Shown here: positions 4,481 to 37,435 of the stretch, piece by piece
Layout: each line of letters starts with the position of its first letter
How positions within the stretch are numbered: the first letter of the stretch is position 1
DNA from: Corallium rubrum
Lineage: Eukaryota > Cnidaria > Anthozoa > Scleralcyonacea > Coralliidae
Reading direction: 5' to 3'
DNA length: 64,000 bases
Assembly (NCBI GenBank): GCA_964035015.1
Contig: OZ035998.1
Span: 52,815,647 to 52,879,646 of the forward strand
The notes under the pieces: model-generated
The model's database searches: none
Told to the model about the DNA's origin: nothing
The model's input: the letters and a program-made list of their open reading frames with translations, nothing else
Program-made: the position numbers and the translations under genes

Positions 4481-4893
4481 ATTGACAGGATTCTGAGGCT
4501 GAGTCAGATAGATTCCTCACGGAAACCTCTGCAGAGGAGAAAGGGAGGATGCAGTGGCCGAGAATGCACCAGAAGTTATTTCAGAGCATTGTAATTTCTC
4601 AAAAACTGGGGTGTGGCCCGTGGGGGATATGCCTAGTAATCTGGTGTCCGTGCATGTTAGACTTTCTGTTCTGAGTCATACGCTCTTGTGATAGCTTGCA
4701 GTTATCAACAGTCATTGAATATTGACCATGGTAAGAAATTTCAATGGGAATTGGGATTGAGTATTTGCTATGTGGATTAGTCTAGTCATAACTGGAATTT
4801 TGCAAATATTTGCTTCGAAAAACTGTCAATCTGTAATATAATTATAGTAATAAATATAGTATTATACATGTAAGTCTTTGCTTCATTTTTTAG

Positions 4894-13900: not shown

Positions 13901-16900
13901 AAAACCATGCCAAGTTAACTTCAAAACAACAAGATGCAATTTATAATGTTACAGTTGGCCAAGCAGAAAATTCTCAATGGTTTGACCAAAGGAAAGGAAG
14001 AATCACTGCCAGTGTGATGCAAAGAGTTTACACGAGAAGTCAGACCTTGCAACGCTCACCAGAAAGTGATCACATCCCTCTTGTTTCCTCGCTGATGGGA
14101 TACAAGAAAATGCCTCAAACAGTAGCATTGAAACATGGCAGATCAATGGAACCTCATGCCATTAAGAAGTACTTGCAGATTGCAAAAAAAACTCATAAAA
14201 AACTAAAAAGTCAGGCACCAGGACTTTTAGTTTATCCAGAGTACCCATACATTGCTGCATCGGCTGATTTAGACATCACATGTGTATGCTGTGGTGCAGG
14301 ACATGTTGAAATAAAATGCCCTTATTCAGTAAAGGACACATCTCCAACAGCAGAAAATCTTTCTTACCTGGAGAGAGAAGGGGACACGGTTGTCTTAAAA
14401 AAGAACACAAACTACTACTTTCAAGTTCAAGGGCAAATGGCAGTAAGTAAGAGAGCGTACACTGATTTTTTTGTGTTCACATTGCATGGCTATGTTCTCT
14501 TCAGAATAAATTTTGACCAGGATCACTGGGAAATGGTTTTCCCAAAATTAGCTTGGTTTTGGGAGCACTATCTCGGGAAGGAAGTTCTCACAAGGGACAT
14601 TGCTTCACAATTAACAGCAACAACTTCCCCAGAATATATGGATAAAGAAAACAAGGCTCCATTGACACCAGTTGTCAAATTGGCTATTCCTGGAAGTTCC
14701 AGAAAATCAGCTACACGTAATGGAATGAAAAGGAAAAAAAAGACAAAGAACCCAGTTTATTTTTGTGGACTATGTAGCAAGCAATTAAGCGAAGAGCCAC
14801 AAGTATATGAAGATGAAAGCATTGGATGTGATTCTTGTCCTTTATGGTTTCATAAAGTCTGTGTCCATATTAAGGATAAAGAACTCCTCCCAAAGAAATG
14901 GTACTGTAAACAATGTTCTACTGTTGCAAAGCATTGAAAATACAACACATGAATTTTATCTGTTACTGTAATACAGTATATCATTAATTTTATTAACAAA
15001 CGTTAGACAATTTTAAAGCAACACACGTAAAACAATCTGCATGTATTCATTTAAATACTTTGGTAAGACTTTTAATACATCTCTAGAAATTGCCTGCTTC
15101 TCACTAGGCTGGGAATTTATTGTATAGATGTAATTAATAAAATAGGTTACAGTCGGACAGGATGTTCGTTACTGCACAACTTTGCAATATTGACTGCAAC
15201 ATTGCAATGTTGATCATCAGCAAGTTGTTGAAAAGTCACATTTCAAACAAGAAATTTGCAACTTTGCGCTGTAACGAACACCCTGTTTGACTGCAATAAT
15301 AAGTGAATTTGTATATAATTATTGTAAATGAACTATAACAATCAATAGGTTACTGTAATTAAGGGGTTTGTAAATAATTATCGTAAAGGTTTTATATTAC
15401 AATCAAGGGGCCAGTTAAACATATATTAATTAATTGTACAATTTAGGGACTGGTGTTCGAAAGCTATCTTAATCTTGGATTAGTGAAAAATTATAGAACA
15501 GAATTTTTAGCTCCCACTTACAAAAATTCCACTTTGTCTTCATAAACTTCCTATTAATTAATAAAGGTTTTATCAAGACATGTGAAAATTGAACTAAAAC
15601 AGTTGGTCTAAATATAACAAAACAAACAACAGATTAAATTTTAATCCAGGATTAGTGTTAATCAACTTTTGAACAACCAGTTCAAATTTATTTACAAGAG
15701 TTTTTCTGAATGCATGTGTCCTGCAGTATATATGCCCACACTCTCATTTTGGGCAATTCAGGCAATAATAGGTTTTTTCATGTTTTGCAATGCAGAACAT
15801 ATAATTAGCAAGTCATCGACTTGAGGAATTAAAGTTATTGGTAATTCCTGCTGCAGAATTTTGAATGTTTTTATCCTTCTTATAACCTGCTCAACAATAA
15901 TCCTGAGGTTTGCAATTTTTTTGGTTTTATTTACCTCAGCACTTGTCATCTGGGAGGTTCCCCTTTTTCCAGGAGGCATGTATGGGGTGATGCAACGGGT
16001 AGCACATTCCTGGTCCAGCATGAACCCCTTGTCAAACATTATTGTAGAATACCTAGGTACTTTATCTAGATATCCAGAATCAACAGTTATCTGTTTGTCT
16101 GTTGTTCTGCCAGTGTATGCTTTTGAAATGAATGTCACCATGGAATTTGGGGCAACGGCAACAAGGAATTTCAAAGTGTTATGGTGCTTGTATGATGACC
16201 AAGTGGAGCTCTGAAGTTTCGGGTCTTTTGGTGTTTCAATAAACAGTTCAGATGCATCTATGATTGTGTGCAGTCCTTTTATCGACTTGAACCGTTCTGG
16301 CATTGTTGCAGAGATAACACTTTGTTCTGGTATGTAGATCATATTGCGCAAGGTGAGTGACATTGCTCGAACCCATGACGTAAATATCTGACCACAAAGA
16401 GAAGTTGAAATTGAAAATCTTCTTGCTAAGTCCATATGCAATAGACCTAAGCGTATCTTCATCAGTGCCAGTAAAAATTCATCTTTTCCTTGAAGGAGAC
16501 GGTTCGGTCCCCTCTTATTGCCATTTGCTTTCGGTGCAGGTTTTGGGGTGTTTCCTCTGGGGCGTCTTTGCACAAATGGTGAAATGAGTTCGTAGAGGGC
16601 GTTAAATGTTCCTTTATTACTGATTCCAGTGAAAAAGTTAACATTTTTATCATCTTTCAGCAAATGTTTATGCATAGGTTGCTTATGGCTGCAAGAGGCT
16701 ACTTGTCTTCTTAATGCCTTAACTCTGTTGGTCAAAATAGCTTTCTCTCTTTTCAATCGTATAATTTGAGAATGTAGCTTCATTGTTTCTTTGATAGCCA
16801 TACTCAAAAAGGAAATTATCACAACAACCAAAACAGTCAATGGAAACTCAAATGAATGGTTTTCATGCTGCTTTTCTGCTGCCACACTAGAAGTACCCGG

Positions 16901-19900
16901 GTTGTCGTTATCGAGTGAATCTGGGATTTCATCCGCTTCCATCGCTTCTGAGACAGAGGATTGTGGATTTGTAGGCATTAAAATTTGCTGCTCTTCTTCC
17001 CTTGGTGTTGGTGTGGTAAAAAGCAGTTTTCGCCGCTTTGGAGTTGGAGTAATGCGCTGAACTCTGTCACTGCTGTCATATCCAAGATGAAGGGTTGGAT
17101 AAGGGTTTTCTGCTGTGGGTTTCCCATCCACAAAATGCCTTGAGCAAACTCTGGAGTCTTTGGATGGTGACCATAATTTTTTATTGCTTGTGGGATTAAC
17201 TCTGTTGATCAGCTGTTTCCATTTCTGTCGTTCAGCAGGCTTTTTCTTGAAAGTTGGAAATGGGGTCAAGCTGAAAAACAGAAAACAAGCTCCAGTTTAA
17301 TTTAAAATATATATTTGAAACATCTTATCCACTGTAGTTAAACTTATCTACCAAAGACTAGTAACTATGTATTTTATAAGTGTAAACTGTTAACATGCCA
17401 GTGCCATTCAGTCTGTGTAGCATGGCATTGGTGGTCTTCATCAAGGCTTTAAAATAACGTAAAATGCAATGCTTTCACTCTCTTACCTGAACTCTGGCGG
17501 GCAGTCGCATTCATTGGAACATCTTCGTGTTTTATGAATATCACAATAACCTTCTTTCCATTTCTTGAGCCGATAACTCCATTGCCACAGTCACGACAAG
17601 CACAGTGATATGCCATGCAAACACTACGATTAACTGGCCAAAATAGGTAAAATTACCTGCTTTAATGCGCCAATTAAAGATCATTTGACGCTAATAGTCT
17701 TTACGTTTGTATGTCAAGACTCCTTTAGCGTTTCTATCCCAAAATATGGAAGGAAACCATGAATAAACTGAAGAACGATAGCGTTTCCCTATGCTCGCCT
17801 TTAGGTGACAGACTGACTTTACTCGAAATTTTTGTTGCTATAGAGGTTACTAAGGAGCCCGCGCTACCTAAGTACAACCGTGGAATCGTGTATTCTGCAG
17901 AACTTAGAGACAAAATAATGAAGCAAATTCCAAATGACCCACGAAAAACTAAACAGCTTGCTTCAAAGCTCCAGATTGCTGAAGGTGAAAGAACTGAAAT
18001 TTCCATAAATGTAAGAACTGATGATGGTTTGACAAATGGTGCTAGTAATATTGTTAAGTTAGTACAGTTACATCAACCTGGAAAACCTTCGGGTATAATA
18101 TGGGTAGAGTTTGATCAACAAGAAGTTGGTAAGAAAACAAGACATGAAAACAGGCAGCTTTATCGACAAAATAATATTCAAAGTACATGGACACCAATTA
18201 AACCAGTCACCACACAATTCGCTGTTGGTAGAAATAGAACGGCTCAAGTTGTCAGAAAGCAATTTCCACTGCGACTAGCTGCTGCTAAGACTGTACATAG
18301 ATCTCAAGGTGATACTCAAACTGAAATTGTTGTTAACCTTAACACTCGAAGAGCAATTCCGCACATACATTACGTTGCATTGAGCCGAGTAACTACGATT
18401 GAAGGACTGTATGTCACTGACCTTTGTGAAGACAAAATTTCTGTTGATCCTAAAGTTGTAAGCGAAATGGAAGAGTTGAGAACAGAAAGAAGCCTCCAGC
18501 TTTGTATCTCTCCATTGTATAAAATAAATGATTCAGTTTTGAAATTGTGTTATTTAAATGCGCGTTCACTCCATAAACACATTGAAGATGTTCGTAAAGA
18601 TTTTAATTATCTCTCTAGCGATATAGCAGTATTTACAGAGACAAGATTCAATCCGATAGAGCCAAATGAAATGTACACCATTGATGGTTTTGAGTTATTT
18701 TGTAACGACAGTCACTCTTGTGTAAATAATGGACGACCCTATTATGGTACAGCGGTATATAGCAGAGTGCCATTAGTTGCTGGTTATCCTTACAGCCACA
18801 ACATTAATTCTATAGAATTCACAATGATCAAAGTAACAAGTCATCCCAACCTGACAATCGTTGCCGTATATCGTTCACCAAAAGTTCCTATTAGTCAACT
18901 GTGTTCCGCATTGAGAGAAATTGTCCTTGAAGTTGCTGGTGAGGAAAGTGTAATAATTGGAGATTTCAATGTAAACTGGCTCAGTGAAACTGATAGAAGA
19001 CCTCTCTACAATGTGTTGGTAAGGGACAATAGCTATGTACAATTAATATCAGACTACACAACAGATAATAAAACTCTCATCGATCATATATTCTGTAAAA
19101 TCACTTCTCAAAATGTAAATTCAGGTATTTTAGAAACCTATTTTAGTGATCATAAAACAATTTGGGTATCATTCAAATGAAGAGCAGACAAATAATATTG
19201 CTATCTATATACAGTAATGTATTTAGAGATACAAATGCAAATAAAATATGTATTACAAATAAATTTTTTATAATGATCATTAATACTTCTAAACTGGCAT
19301 TTACAAGAAAAACTAAGAGCAGAATATTTTTAAAAGGAACACTTTAAAGTGCATAAAGTATTAATTATATAATACAGTATTAAAGATGCAATTGATCAAA
19401 CATGTTGTTTTGCAATTATCAAAAATTATGAATTTAATATTATGAATAAAAATGATTAATTTTTCAAAATAAACAAATAAGTGCTAAAAATTACATTGTG
19501 AATGTTCCCATGCAATATGGGAAAATGTTCCAAGGCAATATGGGAAAATGTTCCAAGGCAATATGGGAACAACTTCACCTGAAGTAATTTTATTACTTCA
19601 ACAGAAGCAGGGGCAACAGACCCACACCACAATTGGACATACTATATAGCAGGTAAGTTATTTTTTCTAATTTACTCTGATTACTTACATGTAACTGGTC
19701 TAGTCAGTTATTCAGTTATTATTTCCAACTGTCAATTAAAGGCTTTGCCTTTTATTTTTTTATAGAAATTGACCAGTGTACAATATATGGAATGTCCAGT
19801 TATGCAGTTCAAGTCTCAAATTGTCAACTGCCAAAAAAATGTTATTCCACTTACTGACAAAAGTATATGGTACTTCTTCCAAATTCTAAACCACATTTTC

Positions 19901-23738: not shown

Positions 23739-26700
23739 CCCACAATAATATTTAAGAAATTCTATTTAGCAAAATTACAACACTACTCCAATAATTTTGC
23801 TCACTTTACATTCAGTGCTTCTACTATATGGAAAAGATTTATAATTTTCTATTGACAACCAAGCCATAAAAATTACAAAAAAATAATAAATGGAAAAATC
23901 CTACCTGTCTTCTCTGTCCACATAACCTTGTGGTAAGTACATTCTGGAGCTTGCTGTGTTGTCTCTGTTCTGATATAATTAGAAAATTATGAAGGGCAAC
24001 TACAGCCATGGTAATCCTCTCTACTTTTTCTGGTTTTGCAATAATTTCTCTTCTCAATATTCTAAATCTTGATGCAGCAATACCGAAAGCATTCTCAACT
24101 ACCCTCCTAGCTCTCGATAGGCGATAGTTGAAAATTTGATGGTTTTCTGGCAGGAATCTACCAGGATATGGACGCATAATATTTTTCATCAAAGGAAATG
24201 CTTCATCACCCACAAGAAGAAAGGGAATGGTAGTTGATGTGCCAGTCAGGAAACGGGGTTCAGGAAACCCAAGTGAATTCGTCGGCATCCCAATGCCAAT
24301 TTCAGAACTCTGAAATACACCTCCATCACTGTGACGTCCATTGTCACCAACATCAACTAACGTGAAGCAATAATCAGCACTTACAACTGCAAGAAGAACG
24401 ATACTATGCCAGTGTTTGTAGTTGAAGTACAGACTTCCTGATCCTGGAGGCGCTTGTATTCTGATATGTTTACCATCAATGGCACCACAGCAATTAGGAA
24501 AATTCCATACTCTCTCGAACTCATTTGCTATCTTCATCCATTCGTGTGGTGAATTGGGAGCCTTTAAATACTTCATTTCCAACAGAGCTTTCCAAAGTGC
24601 AAGGCATGTCTCTGAAATAATTCTGTGTACTGTGGTCAGACCAATTCTGTAGCTAAACGAGAGACTTCGAGGAGAGTCTCCTGATGCTAAATAACGAATA
24701 GTCAATGCTAACCTTTCATCTGAACCAATACTATCACGGTTTTTGTTAGCCTTCTGAATGAATGGCCTCACAAGATTGTAAATAATCAAATTGGTTTGGT
24801 AACATCCTGAAATAAGTGAAATAACCTTCGTGATCTCCATCTCGTAATTCTTTTACCAATGTAAAAAACTCGCTCAATTGTGTTCGCTTCTGGAATATAG
24901 GTCTAACCCAAAAGCGCTTACGGTATTTTTGACGTTGTTTTCTTCGACTTTGCATGTACAATAAAAGAATCAATTTCCTTCTACTTAAACCCATGTTCAG
25001 TCGCCGGTCGCCATATTTGTTTGTTTTTGTTTGGGACTTTAAACCTCGCGCGTTATCGCAACGAGCTGCGTGTGGTGGAAATGGAGTGGCAACCGTGCGA
25101 GTACTCGCAGCGAGCTGCGAGTTGCTTCGTGCGAGGACTGGAAATCCGCCTCCCTTAGTACAAAAAAAGTATGAAAGATCATTCATTTTACTGTACGAAC
25201 ACTTCACGCCCGAGATGCAATGTATATACATGTTTTAATATTTATTCTTTATACTGTAGATATTGTCAAAACCTGCCAAAAGGCAAATTCCTTGTTTACA
25301 AATGTGAAAGATCAGTTTTCTCAACTTATAACAAAAATCCCAGCCGGTCAATACTACAGGTATGGTAACATATGTAGTGGGTTTTATATTAAAATAGTTA
25401 GATTATAAAATTTCTTGTCATTTCAGTTTAGCGTTAAGTTTCATTCAATTTTTTTAAAAAAATGTTTCCGTAGGATTAGAGCGATCATACATATAGTTTA
25501 CAAACAACCCTACTTGAAAAATCTTGAGTACGAATAATGCTGCTGACTTCAAATCAGGAAGGAAAGTATATTTAAAACGTGTTGTTTTGTTTCAGTTGGT
25601 TTTGATCGAACTCAATTTTATTCCCGGAACATATATAATAATATATCAATTATTCACTGATATTCACCGAGCTTGAGGCGAATAATTGTTTTAGTGTAAA
25701 TACACATTTTCGTACATTTGGGAATAACATTTTCTCTAAAATTGTTAATTTCTTCGTCTGTCGCATTGTCAAATTGACACGGCGTTATTAGCAGGAATCC
25801 CTCCAGCTTCTTATTGGCCGATAAAACTTAGCACTTCCGCATGACGTTTCTGGCGCGGTATAGCGTATTTATATATCTGGTAGCACAAATATATCACTCT
25901 CTGAGTACGGATTGATTCTAGACTGTAGTTATGTTGCAAATACTGTGACTCAGCTTCAGAAACAATTCCAAAGTTAGCAAAGATGTCAGTGCACACGAAC
26001 GCGCCATGTCAATAACGTTGAAAGAGCAGTCTCGGATTTGAAATCGGTATTAAAATATCGAAAAGAAAGATTCGCACTATTATACGACAACGTGTTTAAT
26101 TGCAACTTTTGGTTTATACCCACTCTTAATCTTTGCATGTTTGGCCAAGAGTGGCTTGGAGAATTTGTATGCGACTGGGCATAATTATAACTTAAACAGT
26201 TTAATGAAATTATGATACTTAACGCTTTAATCGCAGCATCGTGCTTCGATTATCTGACTCATTCTATTGCCACCAACGTGCACAGCAATCTCTTCAAAGA
26301 ATTAATCTTTAATTTTCATTCACAACAATGCGATACTTCCATTAGATATACAGTACTCCGATGTGCGAATAGCATTAACATCATTTTATTAAAATGTGTT
26401 ATTTGTCGGCTAAACTTCAGTCAAAGACATTTCAATTATTTTTGAATCCCAATAATTATATATTCAATTCATGTAGACGACAAATAATCACTTTGACAAC
26501 AGAAATGCTAAATTTATCGGCCAATCAGAAGCCGGAGGGATTCCTGCTAATAACGCCATGTACAAATTACTGGTGGCCATTTTGAATAAACGCTGTAGGT
26601 GATTATCGAGAATTAGTCCGAAGTAACACAACCAATCAACGCGCGTGATTTTCTATAATCACCTGTGTATTTATACTAACAGCAGATACCGCTGCAATAC

Positions 26701-29700: not shown

Positions 29701-32700
29701 ATGATGATGACGACAATGATAATGATTGTATTTTCACGATGACAGAGGTAGTTCTCATGAATTACCATCATCATAATGGATTGATGATCATTTTGACAAT
29801 AGTAATGATGAAGATGATTGTGGTGGTAGTGATGTTGATTGTGATTGGTGGTGTTTTGATGACAGTGGTAGTTATCATGATAATGACATTGATGATATTG
29901 CTAATGATGTTGTCGCATTATGGAAATCACTAATTCTAACGTTTGGCAATATTTCTTGCTCTGTAGTTAAAGTAAAGCGTGCAGATGGATTTCATATTGA
30001 TCTCAATGACTTTCTCATGGGGCTGCTGCTGTTGGCTAATGAATTGGTATGCTATAACTATGATTTTTTAGAAATTATTGTGATATTTGTAAAAGGCGGT
30101 CTCTTTTTAATAACCAGGGGGAGTTTGTAATTATATAAATCTCGTGTTCGAACAAACACTGGCAAACAAACTTTATCACATATTGCAAGTGAATATTGGC
30201 AAGAACTTCCAGATTCAATAAAATAACTCAATGTCTTCTCTTTCTCTAAAAATATTAAGCAGTTCTTATTAGCAAAACAATTTAAAAGTTAAATTATTTT
30301 CATCTTTATTATATATTGTTTCATTAAATTTAGCTACATGTTAAAATAGAAACTAGTATTGGCTAGGGGCTAACTAGAAAACCTTACGGTTAACTTAGCC
30401 TCTAGGCACTTTTCCCTTTTATTCTTGTAATTAGTTGGGCACCTCCAGATGTAATCTCTCTCTTCCATTTGTTAAAAAAACCGAAAAAAAGTGTGAATAA
30501 AATTTGTATTGTATTGTATTGTATTGTATTGTATTGTATTGTATTGTATTGTATTGTATTGTATTGTATTGTATTGTATTGTATTGTATTGTATTGTATT
30601 GTATTGTATTGTATTGTATTGTATTGTAATTATCGCAAGGTGTTAACCGCTAAAGTGTAGTTTATTGCATGTGGAGTTTGTAGTGGACTCGACGCCTTCG
30701 CATCTCACTTAAATCATGCTAAATATACTATATTAGTTTATATGTTGCAACTTGCAAAAGAACCCACATCCACAAAATGGTTTGTCAATTTGTGTTTGTC
30801 AAACTTAGTGTAGAACTATAGTAAGACTTTTTGGAAGAAACCGAATTTACTACAGAACTGTACGTTTCAACGTTGTTTCTTGTATATGAGCGATTACAAA
30901 AGGAATTCTTGTTCGCTAAAACGTACTAAATAAATGTTTGCTGTTATATTCAAACGATAAGTGTTTCGGAAACTTGGTAAACTTCAATACACGCCTGTGC
31001 ACATTCTTTTTGTTTTTTTTTGCTTATTAATATAAATAACACGGTATAGTGACTGAACTCAAACGCTATGCTATTGGCTGATTGCTCCATTATATACGAA
31101 ACAATAATAATAATTACCCCTTCCGGCCTTCCCCAACATTTCAAATGAGGGGGGCTAATCCCTTCTAATATCTCTGAAGATTTTGCTAAAAATTGTCTAA
31201 AATTTCCTGAGTGGAGGATCAAAATACACCCTTATTATTCTATATGATGAATGAACTCCTCCAATATAGAACATCTTCCGCCACCACAGCCATGCGCAAG
31301 TTTGTATAAACACGAACAGAAAGATAGAACAAAGCTTTTCCTGAGTTTTCAGACCATATTTTGATTGCCTATTTTACCAAAAACCCTTTAGAATATGTAA
31401 AATACCTCACACATGAGGCGTTTTAAGGTGGCTCGATGAAATTATCGCTTCCCCCCATACAAAGTTTGGCACAGGTCTTATGAGCTTCAATTCTTCTTCT
31501 TTTTATATTCTCAAAGTTTATCTAAGTGAAGAAATCGTGAGTAGTAATAGACCCCCATATGGCGGATTCATAATTAATTAGGTAAATTGAATTTTTAATG
31601 AGCTCTGTCAATATCCTCCTCAGGCTCCTTTGGGACCCTCTAACCCTAATCTCATTATGCATACGTCATTATGGCTCATGCTCCTATAGGACACTCTAAC
31701 CCTATCCAACCCCCTTACCCTGGCTTGTTGCTGAACCCCCGGTTTTTATTACGTCATAACTGACTCGCGCTCTTCCGAAACACCCTAACCCTAGCTTGTT
31801 ACTTAACCCCCCTGGTATTCACTACGTCATTCCCGATTGGTCTCCGACTGATTTCCGAAGTTACGTAAAAGGCACTGGACTTATCTCTTTATAACTAATA
31901 GAAACCAACTTTCATTTAAACCCTTAACCCTACTTATAGCCAACACTTGTGGGACACGTAGACGTACAGAGCATGCGTACAGTAAACTTTAACAAAATAG
32001 ACGTTCTTTACAAGGAACTAAAAAGAAAGTGAGAGAAACACTTTATATTTTTTATCTGAAACCTTGTCTCGATGAGTATAGAGAGTTTTGGGCAGCCTAA
32101 GTGTCTGAATTGGCAGAGCTCGTATAGACTCAGATTAATAGCATACATGAATATTATATCAGTTTGGAACTTAAACGGCCAAACAGTTCTTTACCCATTT
32201 ATTTGGACATATGTGCCGAATTGTCGCTTATTTGGCTTTAGTGTATAAAGTAAACGATGCCTTGAATGAAGAAACCGTTCGGAAAGCTGTTCGATAGACA
32301 TTGAAACACTTTCTTCAGATAAACGGCTGACTCGGCTATTTTATTAACGTCGTCAAGCATCTTGTTAATGTTGCTACGGCTGATATTTGCATATTTATCC
32401 TGAGTGCACGTGCAGGAGACAAAAGAAAAACTCATTAGGGGCAATTAAGAGGATTAAGCGCTTGGGCAGGTCTAGGCGAGAAAGTCATTAGCGTGTACTT
32501 TGCATAAGACAGAATTCACAACAATCGGTTTAAAATATTTATTTACACAAAAAACTCTTGATTATTTAGTGATCTATCGGTAACACTAGCATATGGGCAT
32601 ACAGTACATCTTATAATCCGAAGGCATGGATCATGAGTCTTGAATTCTGTACCAGTCTTCAAGCAAAGCAGGTGATAATTGATATTGCATTGACCGAAAG

Positions 32701-35700
32701 TTAAACATACAATCACAAATGCATCTAATTTGCTCGGGGCTTGCAGTCTCCAACAGAGCTCGCTGTTGAATAGGTTCACTTGTACATAAAAGTTCAAGAA
32801 ACGGTTTGTGCTTTTTGATCAACATCTCTATTTGACAGTCAGTGTCTAAATGAGGAAAACGCTACCAAAATACACATTTTAAGAGGAGGAGGAGGAGGAG
32901 GAGGAGGAGGAGGAGAAGGAGGAGGAGGAGGAGGAGGAGAAAGAGGAGGAGGAGGAGGAGGAGGAGGAGGAGAAAGAGGAGGAGGAGGAGAAAGAGGAGG
33001 AGGAGGAGGAGAAAGAGGAGGAGGAGGAGAAAGAGGAGGAGGAGGAGGAGGAGGAGGAGAAGGAGAAGGAGGAGGAGAAAGAGGAGGAGGAGGAGGAGAA
33101 AGAGGAGGAGGAGGAGGAGGAGGAGGAGAAAGAGGAGGAGGAGGAGGAGGAGGAGGAGGAGAAAGAGGAGGAGGAGGAGGAGAAAGAGGAGGAGGAGAAA
33201 GAGGAGGAGGAGAAAGAGGAGGAGGAGAAAGAGGAGGAGGAGAAGGAGGAGGAGAAAGAGGAGGAGAAAGAGGAGGAGGAGGAGGAGAAGGAGGAGGAGA
33301 AAGAGGAGGAGGAGGAGAAAGAGGAGGAGAAAGAGGAGGAGGAGAAAGAGGAGGAGGAGGAGGAGGAGGAGGAGAAAGAGGAGGAGGAGGAGAAAGTGGA
33401 GGAGGAGAAAGAGGAGGAGGAGAAAGAGGAGGAGAAAGAGGAGGAGGAGGAGGAGGAGAAAGAGGAGGAGAAAGAGGAGAAAGAGGAGGAGAAGGAGGAG
33501 GAGGAGGAGGAGGAGGAGGAGAAAGAGGAGGAGGAGGAGGAGAAAGAGGAGGAGGAGGAGAAAGAGGAGGAGGAGGAGAAAGAGGAGGAGGAGAAAGAGG
33601 AGGAGGAGGAGGAGGAGGAGGAGAAAGAGGAGGAGGAGGAGAAAGTGGAGGAGGAGAAAGAGGAGGAGGAGAAAGAGGAGGAGAAAGAGGAGGAGGAGGA
33701 GGAGGAGAAAGAGGAGGAGAAAGAGGAGAAAGAGGAGGAGAAGGAGGAGGAGGAGGAGGAGGAGGAGGAGAAAGAGGAGGAGGAGGAGGAGGAGAAAGAG
33801 GAGGAGGAGAAGGAGAAAGAGGAGGAGGAGGAGAAAGAGGAGGAGGAGGAGGAGGAGAAAGAGAAGAAGGAGTAGGAGTAGGAGGAACAAATAAACACAT
33901 ACATACAAAAGCATTTAGCTTAAAAATATTTATTTCGGTTTTCGTTCAAACATATACATATAAAAAGTTTTAGTAAGGTCTGCTTCTTAGATTATATTTA
34001 GGCGTTTTTATTTTAAAGGTAGCGTGATAGTCTTTCTTGTCTTCTGGTGATAATTGTGATACATCTTCTTTTGTCATGGGTAAATATTTTGATCTAGTCA
34101 TCAATAGATGATGTTCATACTCTTCTCTATCATCTGGGGTCATCTTTGCCAAGTCGCTTTCTTTCCAATCCGAAGAGCTTTCCCAATTATGAAAGAAATT
34201 ATGTTTAAGCGTCGGTTGTTCAACGGTAGGAGGCGGTGTTACAAAATAGGTTTTAGGTGTAGCATGGAAACTCCACGGAAGAGCGTCAGTTTCTTGCTTT
34301 ATCTCCGGTGTCAAATTTTCTGTATTTTGCTGAGTTTGAAGATTAGTCAGAGGTTGAGACTGATTATGCAGTTGGTTTTGAAACGTCAGAAAACGTCCTA
34401 GCTGATTGGAGTAAAGTATGTTCTTTTCGTCAGGTGTTAACTGTGGCGCTTGTACAATATCTTGCATTTTTTGTTCTGTATTGTACATGGCATTAACGAT
34501 TGGAGGTAATTGATAGGATTGCTTTTGTATGAAACTACCCAGCTGTTGCTGCAGGCTTGAGCTATTTTCTCCAGGTAGAACATTGGTCTTGAGGCGATGA
34601 TCGTCGTCCGTGGTCGGTTTCAGATCAAGCATTAAATAACCATGAGGACGAGTTGTGGCTTCCTCGTAACTCTTCATAAATTCATGGACATGACCTGGGT
34701 TCACCTGCCGTGCCAAGACAGAAATTTGTTGCTTATCCCTCGGAGACTTGAATAGTACGATATAGTGTGCGTTGAGGCTGATGTTTCTTGTTTCTTTGCC
34801 TTGGTGAAATATATTCTGAACAATGTAGATCACGGAGAGATTCCTGTGATGACTACCTTTAGTAAATAGACTAGCAATACGTTTATCTCTTCCTGACTGA
34901 TCCATGAGATCATCGAGGACGATCAGGTTACGTTGAGAGACCTCAAGAAAATTATCAGAGTCAATGTCGGAAGGTATACCCTCATAGAATTCGATGCCTG
35001 GTATTGTTTTGATCATTTCTAAATACATGGGCTGCCATTGCCCATAGCACCAAATGATACGTTCGAGAGGAGGATTAATCGTAGTTTTGGCGTTTTCAAG
35101 AAGCGTTTTCACCCATACTGTTTTACCACTCTGTGTGCATCCAGCGACAATGCAAGTAAATGGATGCTGCATGACTGTTGCGTCATTGAGAAGATGTGCT
35201 GGTCTTGAATAAGTACTGTTTTTATGGAAATTTTTTATATGACGTTGCATGTTGAATAGTGTAGAAAACGTTTTTCCACAAATGCTGCAGACATAAGACA
35301 TGTTAACTCGTTGAAGAACATGAGCAGAATAAACATTTCTAGAGAATGTCATATTATTTATTTCTCCTCCTCCTCTTTCTCCTCCTCCTCTTCTTTCTCC
35401 TCCTCCTTCTCCTTCTCCTCCTCCTCCTCCTCCTCCTCCTCTTTCTCCTCCTCCTCCTCTTTCTCCTCCTCCTCCTCCTCCTCTTTCTCCTCCTCCTTCT
35501 CCTCCTCCTCCTCCTCCTCCTCCTCCTCCTCTTTCTCCTCCTCCTCCTCTTTCTCCTCCTCTTAAAACGAGCTCTGCCAATTCAGACCTTTAGGCTGCTC
35601 AAAACTCTCTATACTCATCGAGACAAGGTTTCAGATAAAAAATATAAAGTGCCTCTATCAATTTCTCTTTAGTTCCTTGTAAAGAACGTCTATTTTGTTA

Positions 35701-37435
35701 AAGTTTACTGTACGCATGCTCTGTACGTATACGTGTCCCACAACTGTTGACTATAAGTAGGGTAAAGTGTTTAAATGAAAGGGTGATTACTATTACTTAT
35801 ATAAGTCGAGTACCTTTTGATAATGACGTAACTTCGGAAATCAGTCGGAGACCAATCGGGAATGAATACCAGGGGGGGTTGAGTAACAGCCTGGGTTAGG
35901 GGGAAGTTAGGGTTAAAAGTGTCCTAAAGGAGCCTGAGAAATAATGATGTAAGCATAAATAATAAGTGTGACGTAATAAAACCGGGAGGGTTGAGTGACA
36001 TCCAGGTTTGGGGGGAAGTTAGGGTTAAGAGGGTCCCAAAGGAGCCTGAGAAATAATGACGTATGCATAATGAGATTAGGTTAGAGGGTCCCAAAGGAGC
36101 CTGAGGAGGATATTGACAGAGCTCATTAAAAATTCAATTTACCTAATTAATTATGAATCCGCCATATGGGGGTAGGCTGCCCAAAACTCTCTATACTCAT
36201 CGAGACAAGGTTTCAGATAAAAAATATAAAGTGTCTCTCTCACTTTCTTTTTAGTTCCTTGTAAAGAACGTCTATTTTGTTAAAGTTTACTGTACGCATG
36301 CTCTGTACGTCTACGTGTCCCACAAGTGTTGGCTATAAGTAGGGTTAAGGGTTTAAATGAAAGTTGGTTTCTATTAGTTATAAAGAGATAAGTCCAGTGC
36401 CTTTTACGTAACTTCGGAAATCAGTCGGAGACCAATCGGGAATGACGGGGGGGGGTTAAGTAACATCTAGGGTTAGGGGGGAAAACTTAGGGTTACTACG
36501 TCCCAAAGGAGTCTGAGAATGAATAAATAATAAGTCGGTATGACGTAGTGAAAACCGGGGGGTTGAGTGACGGCTAGGGTTAGGGGTGAAGTTAGGGTTA
36601 GGAGGTCCCGAAGGAGTCTGAGAATGAATAAATAATAAGTCGGTATGACGTAGTGAATACCAGGGGGGTTGAGTAACAACTAGGGTTTAGGGGGGAAAAT
36701 TAGGGTTACGACGTCCCAAAGGAGCCTGAGAATGAATAAATAATAAGTTGAATATATGACGTAGTGAATACCAGGGGGGTTAAGTAACAGCCAGGGTTTA
36801 GGAGGGAAAGTTAGGGTTACTATGTCCCAAAGGAGCATGAGAAATAATGACGTATGCATAATGAGATTAGGGTTAGAGGGTCCCAAAGGAGCGTGAGGAG
36901 GATATTGACAGAGCTCCATTAAAAATTCAATTTACCTAATTAATTATGAATCCGCCATATGGGGGGGTATCACTACTATCGTGTTTCCAGTAAATGCAGA
37001 AAACCTAATAAAATCTGTCGCTTACACAAACACAATTTATCAGGATACGCAAGCGCTACAAGTATAAATCTTTTCAATAATCAAGAGCACCACTAGAGCT
37101 ATGCAATGAACTAAAATGAATCTCATGGGACCTGTGCTACATTTTTCATGAAGAAAATACGTAATTTCTCATGATTTAGACTGTCTAGCCAACTTAATAA
37201 TTCTACTTACGTTTTTTTTTGTTAGTCAAGATATGCTGTTAACTGTGTAACTGCTGGAGAATATGAACAACCGCAGAAGATTGCTTCTTTTGTTTCTCAA
37301 TTGGACGCTGGATTTCGATTGTTAAATTTAAAGAATGACGCGCTACGAAGAAAGTTTGATGGGCTAAAATACGATTTAAAGAAAATTGAGGAAGTTGTTT
37401 ATGATATCAAGATTAGAGGTTTGAAAAACTCGTAA
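4894..37435 (+). CDS. TSN: Translin, five visible exons, 5' end outside the window
   Basis: Translin is a single-strand DNA/RNA-binding protein that forms octamers and, with TRAX, the C3PO endoribonuclease that helps load RISC. Exons are 4894-4984, 25260-25359, 26871-26986, 29967-30046 and 37226-37435. All have AG/GT borders and phases that join without a frame break. Read in order they give the family's signature blocks: the helix around DIEQTTREIL, then QYYRFHDHWRFV, then GFHIDLNDFLMG, and the C-terminal block ending KIEEVVYDIKIRGL. The initiator exon is not visible and probably lies left of the satellite. The intron 4985-25259 contains a 19.8-kb nested transposon, and the last intron contains a Polinton-derived element. 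The exons themselves look undamaged, so the gene is probably functional. Confidence 0.93.
4985..5312. other. Translin intron, left of the Harbinger insertion
   Basis: No coding signal was recognised. The stretch 5210-5310 contains partly inverted GTACAGACC-type words and looks like an old MITE remnant. Confidence 0.4.
5525..22335 (+). CDS. MADF-domain protein of the Harbinger element (two exons, intact frame)
   Basis: Exon 1 is 5525-5678, starts MADRWSDEKVEVLIETV and ends at GTAAGT; exon 2 is 21653-22335 after a TTTTTTGTTAG acceptor. The phases join (G + TT = Val) to give 278 residues. The MADF fold is split by the intron: exon 1 carries the first helices with W and the Y/LYMIKSRSYRD block, exon 2 continues with CQVKWKGLRDTF. 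The C-terminal half is lysine- and serine-rich and acidic, ending in a YHKSLAKMKISQVLFEVE helix typical of MADF/BESS-like partners. Harbinger elements usually carry such a protein to help transposase binding and nuclear import. Its 16-kb intron contains the Helitron and ISL2EU elements. No stop or frameshift is seen. Confidence 0.85.
5753..5891. repeat. Perfect 44-bp inverted repeat (foldback)
   Basis: Arms 5753-5796 and 5848-5891 are exact reverse complements (outer word GTTCAAACACGAGTAGGAGG). The spacer holds a shorter inverted pair. It lies just inside the MADF intron and resembles a MITE terminus or a solo foldback. Confidence 0.85.
5892..6990. other. Left flank of the Helitron coding region, with a 75-bp direct repeat
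   Basis: 5900-6060 matches, in degraded form, the genomic repeat around TCATGAATTATTAATGA that also occurs at 21500-21640, 42573 and 61835-61930. Two open frames at 6170-6544 are not recognised. The word GCAGACCCAAGCCAGCGGTC with its neighbours occurs at about 6630 and again at about 6704, and contains the inverted pair AGACC/GGTCT; it could be a Helitron subterminal repeat. The exact left end of the Helitron could not be fixed. Confidence 0.45.
6991..12543 (+). CDS. Helitron/Helentron replicase, N-terminal part (2A-like, C76-like peptidase, HUH Rep, helicase), interrupted
   Basis: This is a rolling-circle transposon protein. Residues 86-93 read DVEENPGP, a 2A-like ribosome-skipping signal preceded by VPLLLRLSN; the expected break is between Gly92 and Pro93. 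Next comes a cysteine peptidase-like domain with Cys125 in GKQCVAMSL and Asp255/His257 in FDSHSRD, resembling the C76 herpes-tegument-type fold. Charged repeats rich in RLQ and RRAN follow (about 365-500), then a Cys zinc knuckle (523-568). The Rep HUH motif is H1025-I-H1027 and the Rep tyrosines are Y1207 and Y1211. The helicase has Walker A GGGGVGKS (K1578) and Walker B LILLDE (D1663). True coding stops at 12456; the last 29 residues are read from the inserted ISL2EU element. The reading resumes at 17897. Together the two parts give 2249 codons without a stop. Confidence 0.92.
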   Translation: MGITPEQYRSRIGCHSIFMAGKDNERRLKGSFWNTMLMMFYLHVFYLPTLKRVVEQYQRSNEVMSWFHQMMCYHVYVPLLLRLSNDVEENPGPTVYEIINVLETLRADFSQGDQSKFGDNAGKQCVAMSLTAIIFRHIKPHIGNWDSPDLNNILYRGNCLYDCIKGSVKKDFLLLTDVPAMVSLNEKTYNLTYSGESLSGELFMTDNNGPYISLKNAFTEIFFGGETNYECCLLTVDSNTVAVFNMLNNSYRIFDSHSRDMWGMPSFSGTCVLLIVDGLENLVAFFQATSYRGTCVPFEMKGVLVNEVCIDDNQNNQLVNNQKPELGNCYKKREYANESNDKCEVTRKNDQCKSKNKKVKIEDSETRNKRLQARRLNYLKRKNTESALTKEKRLQKCREYKQQKRENESVEQRENRLKAKQVNNKHKRVNESTEHRQNRLQEKQVYDLNRRANESDEHRQNRLQAQQVSDLNRRANESDEHKQNRLLIQKECDTKRRNCDAGPVSDLIHRFHTAVSKGPIYICTCCDQLWYRHSVNSAEKLKVSNPTMSQYLLKKICVDDIEWICRTCEKHLKKNKMPPLAVKNGMVFPEKPESFDLNQLEWRLIAPRLAFLKLMQAPRGKQFKINGNVVNVPADVVNTVNTLPRLPHETGTIKVQLKRRLQYKSSAMSLNVRPHKVFQAATWLAMNSGLYHEQGIVFNEHWQKNFQENLYTPDDITMGHEKDNLDNNSKNTDDKNLNVAKDCAKCQNDDWSEDETEIPAGVTDSMLTPTDFLDDHEREIIHNIAPGEGNRPQSIFRDKYSEELAYPGIFLGQKRPENKERSVKVFYSDICKSELRRSDRRAAMCVENIFFKTKKLQMKILLGKSQIALRKSKRSNTGLTAGQLKQHGSLERIVHHDEGFKFLRALRGSPPYFEKAKKDLFAMIRQLGPATLFCSFSSAETKWLHLLKILGQLIDHKDYTDDELEELNWEEKCRLIQSDPVTCARHFDYQFNKLLKEFLMSNIAPLGKIRDWFYRVEYQQRGSPHIHMLIWLENAPVFGVAKDDDVTSFIDQIITCHLPNNEPDLRNLVNRQTHRHSHTCRKKSKKECRFNYPQPPVKSTKILYPLDDNVSQSEVKKLKVLWKTIKQQLNDMKEGENITFDQLLADLNVSDNDYILAIRSSLNCPTIFLKRNPNELRINNYNTACLSAWRANMDIQFVLDVYACAMYIVSYISKAQKGMSELLRTACAEAREGNASIKQQVRDIGNKFLNSVEISAQEAVYIVLQLPMRKSSREVVFIPTSPPNERVQLLKPLSEIEKMPDECEEIHFGGLLKRYTERPASLENATLADWAAWYDSVNNKSYQKKTTKPDIDDLPLETSDNDDNNDDELCDDTNTINKSKKSYKNSELKKRTKARIIRCVWFNKEAYPEKHYRELIMLFTPWRNEESDLIGNYSSYEEHYLTLQDSIRDQMSLYAVCNEELNNAREQLNSAFDNDEDQFDLIAPVTQDAEHQDEDEGAIDLHPDLNENYDLSHDIGIPSASSNNEPLILNEMPDDEYREMVQMLNKEQKEFFYHTLHLIKTSDKPFYSFLSGGGGVGKSHLTKSIYQAALKYYNTRAGDDFSQVNVLLLAPTGKAAFIIRGNTIHSALAVPACQSLRNYKPLDSNRLNTLRCQLGSVKLILLDEISMVGNSMFNVQINNRLKDIKGSKEDFGGVNIIAIGDLFQLKPVMDGFIFKDFDNSEYGVLTPNLWKQHFQMFELHEIMRQRESKAFAETLNRLREGKHTENDILKIKERIVSEENCPKQAPHLFIQNLNVDEFNNQVYKAATGAKYTVKAHDSVIGANTRFYGFLARYARASETQATAHSNKNFE
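12689..14937 (+). CDS. YqaJ-type nuclease with SWIM and PHD fingers (ISL2EU second protein)
   Basis: Exon 1 is 12689-12792 (starts MTLETFKLWK, ends GCAAGCAG before GTAAGC) and exon 2 is 12936-14937 (acceptor ACTCAG). AG + G restores Arg and joins DELASR to AFVAWEDG, giving 701 residues. Domains in order: a short SAP-like N-terminal helix pair; a SWIM zinc finger (C190-x-C192, C200-x-H202); a YqaJ/lambda-exonuclease-like core (WFDQRKGRITAS, ALKHGRSMEPHA, SADLD with D479, E493-I-K495, then QVQGQM); and a C-terminal PHD finger from C645. Starting instead at the later ATG at 12898 would put intron sequence in the protein. The frame is intact. Its role in transposition is not established; a recombinase or exonuclease role is inferred from the fold. 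Confidence 0.88.
15147..15296. mobile_element. MITE with CAGTC..GACTG ends
   Basis: The left end CAGTCGGACAGGATGTTCG matches the reverse complement of the right end (GAACACCCTGTTTGACTG). It lies in the ISL2EU intergenic space between the two convergent genes and resembles the MITE at 20881-21077, so it is probably the same family. Confidence 0.7.
15297..15757. other. ISL2EU 3' intergenic region
   Basis: AT-rich sequence without a gene. The inverted pair around TTAATCTTGGATTAGTG (about 15468) and AATCCAGGATTAGTGTTAA (about 15640) suggests another small foldback. Confidence 0.45.
15758..17616 (-). CDS. ISL2EU THAP-DDE transposase, exon 1 apparently frameshifted
   Basis: Exon 1 is 17616-17487 and exon 2 is 17270-15758, spliced at GTAAGA and TTTTTCAG. 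Exon 1 begins MAYHCACRDCGNG and, in another frame, continues with SYRLKKWKEGYCDIHK and a Cys-rich end, the usual THAP zinc-finger start. The frame changes between them, so one base appears missing near 17585. Exon 2 opens with LTPFPTFKKKPAERQ and the CSRHF motif that completes the THAP finger. A membrane-like hydrophobic stretch and coiled coil follow. The DDE_4-type catalytic core is then visible: IIDASE (first Asp), MFDKGF (second Asp) and RIIVEQVIRRIK (Glu). Expected length is about 547 residues. The core is intact. Confidence 0.82.
17897..19180 (+). CDS. Helitron/Helentron replicase, C-terminal part (helicase motifs V-VI and EEP endonuclease)
   Basis: This continues the frame broken at 12456. 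The upstream ATG at 17759 belongs to the ISL2EU end, so it is not the true start. The first 200 residues complete the Pif1-like helicase (AAELRDKIMKQIP, then AAAKTVHRSQGDT, then YVALSRVTT). After a short linker comes an endonuclease-exonuclease-phosphatase domain: LNARSL, FTETRF with the catalytic Glu, GDFN, LIDHIF and the terminal SDH. A Rep-helicase with a C-terminal EEP endonuclease is the Helentron arrangement. It ends at TGA with no damage seen. Confidence 0.9.
   Translation, partial: AELRDKIMKQIPNDPRKTKQLASKLQIAEGERTEISINVRTDDGLTNGASNIVKLVQLHQPGKPSGIIWVEFDQQEVGKKTRHENRQLYRQNNIQSTWTPIKPVTTQFAVGRNRTAQVVRKQFPLRLAAAKTVHRSQGDTQTEIVVNLNTRRAIPHIHYVALSRVTTIEGLYVTDLCEDKISVDPKVVSEMEELRTERSLQLCISPLYKINDSVLKLCYLNARSLHKHIEDVRKDFNYLSSDIAVFTETRFNPIEPNEMYTIDGFELFCNDSHSCVNNGRPYYGTAVYSRVPLVAGYPYSHNINSIEFTMIKVTSHPNLTIVAVYRSPKVPISQLCSALREIVLEVAGEESVIIGDFNVNWLSETDRRPLYNVLVRDNSYVQLISDYTTDNKTLIDHIFCKITSQNVNSGILETYFSDHKTIWVSFK
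19181..20068. other. Helitron 3' flank with a short tandem repeat and a possible exon
   Basis: At about 19500-19570 the word AATGTTCCAAGGCAATATGG repeats about three times. At 19605-19651 an AACAG border, 47 open bases (about ATDPHHNWTYYIA) and a following GTAAGTT look like a small exon. The Helitron 3' terminus was not found. Confidence 0.4.
20092..20254 (-). pseudogene. Isolated exon, possibly TM1 of a 7TM receptor
   Basis: An ATG at 20254 opens about 54 residues that end ILRNSATGS at a good donor (GTAAGT just below 20092). The segment CVIEWLLGAPLICLNTATLI is a plausible membrane helix followed by a basic turn, as in TM1 of rhodopsin-like receptors. Base composition is more GC-rich than the surroundings. 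No later exon is visible, and the sequence lies inside the MADF intron beside the Helitron, so it is more likely a captured host exon than a working gene. The family call is tentative. Confidence 0.4.
20255..20880. other. AT-rich stretch without a recognised gene
   Basis: Only short chance frames are seen. It sits between the captured exon and a MITE. Confidence 0.4.
20881..21077. mobile_element. MITE with CAGCC..GGCTG ends
   Basis: The left end CAGCCAAACTGGGTGTTCG is mirrored by the right end (reverse complement CAGCCAAACCGGGTATTCG). It is bordered by TTA and TAA. Same family as 15147-15296. Confidence 0.75.
21200..21480. repeat. Foldback repeat in the MADF intron
   Basis: Inverted words around CATTAGGATA/TATCCTGATG, CTTCGAAGT/ACTTTGAAG and AATTCTGACACAATTGTGG/CCACAATTGTGACAGAATT give a long imperfect hairpin just before MADF exon 2. 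Confidence 0.65.
22336..22703. other. Short gap between the convergent Harbinger genes
   Basis: It contains three copies of TTTTTATGTATTACAT-like words (about 22423-22462) and AT-rich 3' ends. No gene seen. Confidence 0.5.
23199..23372 (+). mobile_element. SINE with 5S-rRNA-like internal promoter
   Basis: The segment around CCTGGATGGGTGACTGCCCG resembles the 3' half of 5S rRNA (internal control region). The 5' part contains a GTGGTTAGTGCATTGC word and the tail is rich in GAGGGTTTTTCTC. A second copy lies at 29195-29410. It runs into a TA microsatellite. Confidence 0.7.
23372..23417. repeat. (TA)n microsatellite
   Basis: About 22 uninterrupted TA units at the end of the SINE. Confidence 0.95.
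23669..23737. repeat. (CA)n-(TA)n compound microsatellite
   Basis: A CA run passes directly into about 26 TA units, inside the Harbinger transposase intron. Confidence 0.95.
25260..25359 (+). CDS. TSN: Translin exon (ends QYYR)
   Basis: Acceptor ATACTGTAG and donor GTATGG. It encodes the linker helix from DIVKTCQKAN to ITKIPAGQYY. It starts only 103 bp from the right end of the Harbinger element. Confidence 0.9.
25360..26870. repeat. Translin intron with a foldback element (arms 25780-25832 and 26508-26559)
   Basis: The arms are about 52 bp inverted copies (core GGCGTTATTAGCAGGAATCC). The roughly 675-bp interior has no recognised coding. Sequence around 25640-25700 (CACCGAGCTTGAGGCGAAT) looks like a further MITE end. 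Confidence 0.7.
26871..26986 (+). CDS. TSN: Translin exon (FHDHWRFV..LITREEV)
   Basis: Acceptor CTCGTTTAG and donor GTGAGT. It encodes FHDHWRFVSQRASFL and the following helix, the most conserved part of translin. Confidence 0.93.
27155..27380. repeat. Foldback element in a translin intron
   Basis: Arms 27178-27220 and 27309-27349 are inverted copies (core AGGTTTAATTTCACTCGTG), with a third partial copy between them and a CGAAGCGACG hairpin near the centre. Confidence 0.8.
27381..27896. other. Intronic stretch without recognised content
   Basis: No coding block, repeat family or RNA was recognised. Confidence 0.4.
27897..27980 (-). tRNA. tRNA-like sequence (pseudogene or SINE head)
   Basis: On the minus strand an A box (TGGCTCAATGGGTA) and a B box (GGTTCGAGTCC) are well placed. 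The ends GTTCTAG and CTGGAAC can form a complete 7-bp acceptor stem with one G-U pair, and the T stem closes over a TTCGAGT loop. The D and anticodon arms do not fold convincingly and 84 nt is long, so a working tRNA is unlikely. No CCA or isotype can be assigned. Confidence 0.45.
28196..28870. repeat. Minisatellite of about 20-bp units with a 119-121-bp higher-order period
   Basis: Units resemble ACGCTACATTATAAGACGTT. The marker TCTATATAAGACG starts at 28205, 28284, 28403, 28524 and 28643, which shows the higher-order spacing. Confidence 0.93.
29110..29190. repeat. GC-rich segment with a poly-C run
   Basis: A CCCGGGCCCTGGG palindrome is followed by about 18 consecutive C. No gene function seen. 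Confidence 0.6.
29195..29410 (+). mobile_element. SINE, second copy (5S-like internal region)
   Basis: It contains GTTAGTACTTCTGTCTTGGA and GGATGGGTCACCGCTTGGGA, close to the 5S rRNA C-box region, and a tail ending CGGGTACTCCGGTTTTCCTC, common to invertebrate SINE families. The 5' part has GTGTGCTGTTAGTGCGCTGCC. A short insertion interrupts the 5S-like box. Confidence 0.75.
29490..29920. repeat. GAT-rich imperfect trinucleotide/hexanucleotide repeat
   Basis: Runs of GATGAT, GATATTGATG and GATAAT extend over about 430 bp, drifting to ATG-rich words. The open frames here are repeat artefacts. Confidence 0.9.
29967..30046 (+). CDS. TSN: Translin exon (GFHIDLNDFLMG)
   Basis: Acceptor GCTCTGTAG and donor GTATGC. 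It encodes KVKRADGFHIDLNDFLMGLL; phase 2 at the start fits the preceding exon, giving LGLKVK. Confidence 0.92.
30117..30628 (+). mobile_element. LINE 3' end with (ATTGT)n tail
   Basis: A short open stretch reads about TGKQTLSHIASEYWQELPDS then FSKNIKQFLLAK, the usual C-terminus of CR1/L2-type reverse transcriptases (aromatic-x-LP-x-x-I, then FK). About 230 bp of 3' UTR and about 25 pentanucleotide units (30503-30628) follow. It is heavily 5'-truncated. Confidence 0.7.
30940..31376. mobile_element. MITE copy (GGTCTGGAAAC family), diverged
   Basis: It shares GGAAACTTGGTAAACTTCAA, the CTGTGCACA block, AATAACACGGT and a terminal CAGACCATATTTTGATTG with the copies at 40256, 41274 and 60790. An insertion of roughly 150 bp lies in its middle. 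Confidence 0.65.
31540..32125. repeat. Left terminal inverted repeat of the Polinton-derived element
   Basis: It matches 35569-36170 and 36178-36977 in inverse orientation. It includes CCATATGGCGGATTCATAAT near the tip, several CCCTAACCCTAA-like words, and GCAGAGCTCGT at its inner end. Confidence 0.88.
32238..32444 (-). CDS. Hypothetical 68-residue protein in the Polinton-derived element
   Basis: Not recognised. The central part KMLDDVNKIAESAVYLKKVF is a likely amphipathic helix. It has the same strand as the other two frames of the element, so it may be a remnant gene, but chance is possible. Confidence 0.3.
   Translation of the reverse strand: MPLMSFSFVSCTCTQDKYANISRSNINKMLDDVNKIAESAVYLKKVFQCLSNSFPNGFFIQGIVYFIH
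32631..32825 (-). CDS. Small helical protein of the type carried by Polinton/adintovirus-like elements
   Basis: The 64-residue frame reads MLIKKHKPFLELLCTSEP, then QQRALLETASPEQIRCICDC and a C-terminal LSPALLEDW. The pattern of a basic start, an LLETASPEQ-like turn and a Cys-containing helix is one I associate with short conserved frames in Polinton-like elements. It ends earlier than expected, perhaps by a frameshift. Function unknown. Confidence 0.45.
   Translation of the reverse strand: MLIKKHKPFLELLCTSEPIQQRALLETASPEQIRCICDCMFNFRSMQYQLSPALLEDWYRIQDS
32883..33880. repeat. Polypurine (GGA)n/(GAAAGA) tract, about 1 kb
   Basis: An almost pure purine + strand built of GAGGAG runs with AAAGAG interruptions. 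The single variant GTGG occurs at 33396 and 33645, showing a 249-bp internal duplication. It lies downstream of the ATPase gene. All open frames through it are artefacts. Confidence 0.97.
33970..35352 (-). CDS. Packaging-type (A32/HerA-FtsK-like) ATPase with N-terminal C2H2 finger
   Basis: The start is taken at ATG 35352 (MTFSRN) or 35301 (MSYVC), because upstream codons come from the TCC tract. Residues 18-40 form a C2H2 zinc finger (CSICGKTFSTLFNMQRHIKNFH). Walker A is AGCTQSGKT and Walker B is LIVLDDLMD, followed by a sensor-like IYIVQNIFHQGK. The C-terminal 200 residues are Gln/Asn-rich with repeated SPEDK/TPDDR words, ending NLRSRPY. Such ATPases package DNA in Polinton, adintovirus and large DNA virus lineages. 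At about 460 residues it is of ordinary size. No stop or frameshift is seen. Confidence 0.82.
   Translation of the reverse strand: MTFSRNVYSAHVLQRVNMSYVCSICGKTFSTLFNMQRHIKNFHKNSTYSRPAHLLNDATVMQHPFTCIVAGCTQSGKTVWVKTLLENAKTTINPPLERIIWCYGQWQPMYLEMIKTIPGIEFYEGIPSDIDSDNFLEVSQRNLIVLDDLMDQSGRDKRIASLFTKGSHHRNLSVIYIVQNIFHQGKETRNISLNAHYIVLFKSPRDKQQISVLARQVNPGHVHEFMKSYEEATTRPHGYLMLDLKPTTDDDHRLKTNVLPGENSSSLQQQLGSFIQKQSYQLPPIVNAMYNTEQKMQDIVQAPQLTPDEKNILYSNQLGRFLTFQNQLHNQSQPLTNLQTQQNTENLTPEIKQETDALPWSFHATPKTYFVTPPPTVEQPTLKHNFFHNWESSSDWKESDLAKMTPDDREEYEHHLLMTRSKYLPMTKEDVSQLSPEDKKDYHATFKIKTPKYNLRSRPY
35358..35564. repeat. Polypyrimidine (TCC)n tract, inverted relative to the GGA tract
   Basis: About 200 bp of CTCCTCCTC with TTTCTCC interruptions immediately upstream of the ATPase start. 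It is complementary to 32883-33880. Confidence 0.95.
35569..36977. repeat. Right terminal repeat of the Polinton-derived element, tandemly duplicated
   Basis: Two successive copies of the terminal repeat lie head to tail, joined at about 36170 where CCATATGGGGGT runs directly into AGGCTGCCCAAAACTC. Within the second copy a unit of about 105-120 bp with GTTAGGGTTAGGGG and GGTCCCAAAGGAGCCTGAG repeats about four times. Confidence 0.85.
37226..37435 (+). CDS. TSN: Translin last exon
   Basis: Acceptor TTTTTTTGTTAG, 69 codons, stop TAA. It encodes SRYAVNCVTAGEYEQP, then LDAGFRLLNLKNDALRRKFD and the C-terminal helix. AATAAA polyadenylation words follow at about 37468. Confidence 0.95.
   Translation, partial: SRYAVNCVTAGEYEQPQKIASFVSQLDAGFRLLNLKNDALRRKFDGLKYDLKKIEEVVYDIKIRGLKNS

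Follow-up and report, generated by a model that had tools for sequence, protein, structure and literature searches.

Intact vertebrate Polintons, also named Mavericks, are reported to be 12.7-24.6 kb long, with terminal inverted repeats of 46-1,447 bp, the terminal motif (AGT)2//(ACT)2 or (AG)3//(CT)3, a 6-bp target duplication and a first gene module of the order ppolb-atp-pm-pz (PMC8097293). Short, deletion-bearing copies have been described among the fragmented Mavericks of Mayetiola destructor, with consensuses of 600-4,500 bp and only polymerase or integrase domains (PMC8504770). The present work concerns an element in a 64,000-nucleotide stretch of the Corallium rubrum genome (assembly GCA_964035015.1, contig OZ035998.1, positions 52,815,647 to 52,879,646 of the forward strand), which was analysed as a whole and is called the window; all coordinates refer to it. 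A preliminary description had taken the element for a 5.4-kb miniature Polinton with one large gene. The present analysis bears out that size (5,438 bp, 31540..36977) and the single large gene, and suggests that the element is a non-autonomous Polinton, derived from a full Polinton by gene loss and moved in trans (probability roughly 0.5).

With the adintovirus-like Polintons of animals the element shares its ends, the 6-bp duplication, long terminal inverted repeats, an A32/FtsK-type ATPase and relatives of two small proteins of tubeworm Polinton contigs, which are here called PM and PZ after their position in ppolb-atp-pm-pz only and not after any sequence comparison with vertebrate PM or PZ. 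It differs from them in being 5.4 kb long with no polymerase, integrase, capsid or protease gene detected by queries from one tubeworm contig, in the fusion of its ATPase with a C2H2 finger and a PZ-position domain, and in the truncation of its PM-position gene. Unlike the M. destructor copies it has both ends, the duplication and an open ATPase gene. Virophages and transpovirons belong to the same virus world, as small members or companions that depend on a helper, and virophages encode their own capsid; nothing in the element points to a giant-virus helper. A finger protein occurs in this virus group too, the adintovirus 'Ziftr', which is set apart from the fused finger by its description as a separate gene resembling transcription regulators (PMC11071296). 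A literature search for the phrases non-autonomous (or nonautonomous) Polinton or Maverick, mini-Polinton and miniature Polinton returned none, and term searches found no description of a finger-ATPase-PZ fusion.

Results and discussion

The element is a clean insertion with a perfect ATCGTG target duplication. The left copy of the duplication (31534..31539) is followed by AGTAGTAATAGACCCCC and the right copy (36978..36983) is preceded by GGGGTATCACTACT; the end hexamers, AGTAGT on the left and ACTACT on the right, are both perfect. The left terminal inverted repeat (31540..32123, plus strand, 584 bp) begins with AGTAGT, and the right outer repeat (36173..36977, minus strand, 805 bp) finishes with ACTACT. 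In the right arm the terminal repeat is present twice, in tandem, and the inner copy (35567..36172, minus strand), identified by alignment, is without approximately the last 12 nt; the boundaries of the copies inside the element were assigned by the analyst. Much of the difference in length between the left and right repeats is due to a minisatellite with a 111-bp unit (3.6 copies, 36450-36843) within the right outer repeat.

The left and right outer repeats are identical at 271/272 positions in their inner part and at 134/140 in their outermost part, or at 526/554 over all alignable positions with the minisatellite included. A 275-nt pair in the two arms is complementary save for one mismatch, and the 20-mer CCCCCATATGGCGGATTCAT occurs three times in the window, always within the repeats of the element, where shuffling gives an expectation of 0.00. 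A chance match was rejected on this complementarity, on the 20-mer count and on the duplication and ends. The close match of the two ends points to either recent homogenisation or a fairly young insertion.

The three repeat copies hold 13 TTAGGG/CCCTAA hexamers (2 in the left, 3 in the right inner and 8 in the right outer copy) out of 26 in the whole window. In all 13 the G-rich strand runs outward to the element end, the orientation found at chromosome ends; since the three copies stem from one repeat, the hexamers do not count as independent. The one regular expression applied to the repeats for G-quadruplexes gave no match.

The single large gene lies in an open reading frame (ORF) on the minus strand, 33970-35589; outside simple repeats the element has no other long gene-like ORF. 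Past the purine tract the first ATG, at 35352, gives an open gene of 460 aa (33970..35352), but comparison with related proteins makes a start at 35301, for a product of 443 aa, more likely. The predicted protein has a C2H2 finger at aa 20-43, an ATPase at about aa 59-262, with Walker A (GCTQSGKT) at 71 and Walker B (LIVLDD) at 143, and a C-terminal domain, the tail, behind it. Pfam matches to Pox_A32 (2.2e-07) and zf-C2H2 (9e-06) were each above the curated cut-off, and the ATPase, of the virion packaging type, had STIV2 B204 as its best match among solved structures. About 35 nt past the stop codon an AATAAA (33929..33934, minus strand) may serve as polyadenylation signal.

For comparison, contigs in GTDB were scanned; 66 stretches matched and two loci were confirmed, L001 and L002 (QGON01000010 and QGON01000029), both in one symbiont assembly of the tubeworm Escarpia laminata. 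Both carry Polinton genes and are most likely host DNA inside a bacterial genome record. L002 (11.8 kb) has the order PolB, ATPase, small protein, second small protein, integrase ORF, capsid-region ORFs and adenain-like protease, which resembles the published gene content of vertebrate Mavericks. Its PolB, cut off at the 5' end, matched DNA_pol_B_2 (2.9e-09), with a C2H2-like finger near the front (0.014, below the Pfam cut-off). The L001 counterpart of its integrase ORF matched rve (1.3e-09) and a chromodomain (6.8e-08); the protease match (4.9e-04) was just under the cut-off, and the capsid-region ORFs, with no Pfam match above cut-off, are named by position.

The ATPase of the element is 45% identical to that of L002 over 212 aa. 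A profile built from 32 tails ranked the PZ-position ORFs of L002 and L001 first and second of 128 ORFs (E 4e-09 and 8.2e-06; next 0.053), and hhalign of the tail with the PZ-position protein gave a probability of 14.7% with one tubeworm sequence and of 58% (P 9.7e-05) with two. BLASTP of the whole protein against the tubeworm PZ-position protein found nothing at the right place. The tail is thus a probable relative of the PZ-position protein, a link carried mainly by the tail profile. Given the identity of the ATPase and the profile match of the tail to separate tubeworm genes, the coral protein is most likely a fusion of two genes that are kept separate in the tubeworm.

A second gene is represented by a 76-aa ORF (32634..32861, minus strand). 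With a profile of 22 PM-position proteins it scored best of the 597 ORFs of at least 40 aa in the window (E 0.0015; next 0.2), and its 13.8 bits were reached by none of 4541 scored shuffles (5000 made; highest 7.4). It was also matched by hhalign to the PM-position family (probability 80.7%, P 1.3e-05) and by BLASTP to the tubeworm protein (E 0.008). Relationship to the PM-position protein is suggested, with moderate confidence, on about 54 residues: the profile match begins near the N-terminus of both proteins and ends after some 54 residues, and since the conserved C-terminal part is missing the ORF is called a truncated relic. Pfam gave nothing for the ORFs of the left arm, nor did the 76-aa ORF, used as query in a protein search, bring up a candidate, full-length relatives possibly falling beyond the length limits of that search.

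The relic therefore qualifies one part of the preliminary description, that the element keeps essentially only the packaging ATPase. The ATPase is indeed in its one large gene; that gene is a three-part fusion, and the remains of a second gene are present as well.

In length the element, set against the 12.7-24.6 kb of full vertebrate elements, fits only a non-autonomous relative. The missing genes were sought with the PolB, integrase, capsid-region and protease sequences of the single contig L002, so that a diverged remnant could escape. With these queries the best match in the whole window had E 0.13; it was to the protease and lay outside the element, in which neither the protease nor the capsid-region queries had a match. 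The integrase ORF gave no tblastn match up to E 1, and a lone match of E 0.52 overlapped the relic ORF. Judged by its predicted proteins, the element looks like Polinton module 1 minus the polymerase.

The identification as a Polinton, which had been based on the ends, the 6-bp ATCGTG duplication and the ATPase, holds, and is joined by the finding that relatives of the ATPase, the C-terminal domain and the relic stand around the polymerase and integrase of the tubeworm contig. A foldback element or MITE (miniature inverted-repeat transposable element) unrelated to Polintons was rejected, because the AGTAGT/ACTACT ends, the duplication and the virion-type ATPase all agree with Polintons.

Inside the repeats, the ATPase gene is flanked on either side by purine/pyrimidine tracts in inverted orientation: a (GGA/GAAA)n purine tract of about 1 kb (32883..33886) and its inverted counterpart, a pyrimidine tract (35364..35561), both located by repeat analysis. 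Long tracts of this kind are able to form triplexes and may favour rearrangement. In the right arm GAGCTCG joins TTTTAAGAGGAGG directly, whereas in the left arm the same two sequences are parted by about 750 bp (32124..32876), between the terminal repeat and the purine tract, and it is this left-arm-only segment that houses the relic gene. As repeat and tract are contiguous on the right, the tracts seem to be part of the inverted repeats; the segment would then have been lost by the right arm or gained by the left.

Relatives of the fused protein were sought among 5.8 billion proteins; 706 matched, and the figures that follow describe the best 120, which were listed. In the first 17, identity is 60-64% across 95-96% of the protein, and for most of them the match takes in finger and tail. 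By motif script, 88 of the 120 have Walker A, 68 a finger ahead of it, 70 a tail of at least 100 aa and 57 all three; the misses of the script include short fragments and proteins that start behind the finger. Only two of the listed matches bear an organism name, in both cases the stony coral Oculina patagonica (47%). Fourteen are representatives of clusters with 50 to 225 member sequences, but cluster size was rejected as a measure of copy number as the table is silent on how members are spread over genomes. In a midpoint-rooted tree of the ATPase core (86 of the 120 proteins, the coral protein and the two tubeworm loci) a supported fork (97/99) holds 55 rows, with the coral protein inside and the tubeworm loci far outside. 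Scans of IMG/VR for relatives gave none. The fused gene is not a one-off, its build being common to many divergent proteins among the matches listed.

The favoured explanation is that a full Polinton lost its polymerase, integrase, capsid and protease genes and kept what is needed in cis, namely the terminal repeats and the AGTAGT/ACTACT ends. With neither polymerase nor integrase, the element would depend on movement in trans: a full Polinton sharing its cell would supply both the protein-primed polymerase to copy it from the terminal repeats and the integrase to insert it, giving the 6-bp duplication. The ends and the duplication do point to a Polinton integrase. The ATPase gene would be mainly a leftover of the deletion, and the finger perhaps the N-terminus of the lost polymerase, or else native to the ATPases of this clade; the tubeworm polymerase is the immediate upstream neighbour of the ATPase, and its C2H2-like fingers stay below the Pfam cut-off. 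When 128 ORFs were ranked with a finger profile (27 sequences), the L002 polymerase came first (E 4e-06), a result that was not counted in favour of the polymerase origin because any C2H2 finger would score. Several points weigh against descent by simple loss. An open fused gene, of a build common to many divergent proteins, is more than a passive leftover would need, although full Polintons may be home to those relatives. The ATPase-tail-relic order is unlike the ATPase-PM-PZ order of the tubeworm contigs, and the six differences between the two ends in their outermost 140 bp allow for an insertion that is not very young. In a published survey, moreover, nine capsid-less Polintons are reported to lack ATPase and protease as well, so that the usual loss is not of all but the ATPase (PMC4028283).

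That published joint loss, to which retention of the ATPase alone runs contrary, is also an argument for a tentative alternative, an established satellite lineage in which the ATPase is kept for use: the finger would bind the terminal repeats and the ATPase would load satellite DNA into the capsids of full Polintons. The catalytic motifs are present and the gene is open, with a possible poly(A) signal, beside a truncated PM-position gene; a finger is joined to the packaging motor; and the fused build recurs in 57 of the 120 homologues listed, among which are the 14 cluster representatives. A precedent of principle exists in phage-inducible chromosomal islands (PICI), whose terminase small subunit (TerS) directs preferential packaging (PMC6092414). 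The principle proposed to be common to these islands, SaPI (Staphylococcus aureus pathogenicity islands) included, and to the coral element is that of a helper-dependent element carrying a gene for packaging specificity; the islands are bacterial, no homology is claimed, and for the coral element both helper and packaging are proposals only. Against a satellite, the relatives may be ordinary full Polintons, of which the coral copy is merely a shortened one, and cluster sizes cannot tell satellite copies from full elements. The satellite dependent on a full Polinton that the preliminary description suggested is compatible with these findings, but only as a possibility; a plain non-autonomous derivative is weighed above a true satellite lineage. 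Slightly less likely again is a wider proposal, that 5-kb Polinton satellites form a long-lived family in animals, probably in anthozoans, and carry a dedicated finger-ATPase fusion which steers their DNA into full-Polinton capsids. It is improbable that the element is a damaged or mis-assembled full Polinton, its interior dropped by the assembler or by recombination at the repeats and purine tracts. The duplicated right repeat and the long inverted purine tracts would favour this, such sequences being hard to assemble and prone to rearrangement, but there is no flaw in the target duplication or in either end hexamer, the gene is open, and an inner segment in one arm only is not predicted by simple collapse. 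An autonomous transposon of a new type, driven by the finger-ATPase itself, is very improbable: that protein is the one long gene product available, but to our knowledge packaging ATPases of this family have no integrase chemistry, and the 6-bp duplication and ends are as reported for Polintons (PMC8097293).

Around the element, an exon-like ORF about 250 bp away (37226-37435, plus strand) matched Translin (PF01997, 1.6e-25). A second translin-like stretch, within 25175-25405, was recognised by eye only and given no score by Pfam; a translin intron may be the site of the insertion. Elsewhere in the window are a 1,857-aa Helitron-like ORF (6970-12543, plus strand; Helitron_like_N, PIF1, DUF6570) with a Herpes_teg_N match near its front, a 708-aa ORF with a YqaJ-like recombinase and a PHD finger (12811-14937, plus strand), and a 512-aa THAP and DDE_Tnp_4 ORF without stops (15758-17296, minus strand), possibly an intact transposase. 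A long tandem array (83-4594) gives SHTQPYSAIL-like repeats on translation in several frames.

Conclusions

Particles of Mavericks have so far been unobserved (PMC8097293). If the proposal is correct, a helper-dependent element that keeps only the packaging motor open would argue indirectly for continued packaging of animal Polintons into particles, and it would offer a small natural substrate for testing Polinton packaging. A satellite family, if there is one, would be an animal counterpart of the phage satellites with their own terminase. Even as a plain deletion copy, the element would still document Polinton ends moving in trans and a finger-ATPase-PZ fusion.
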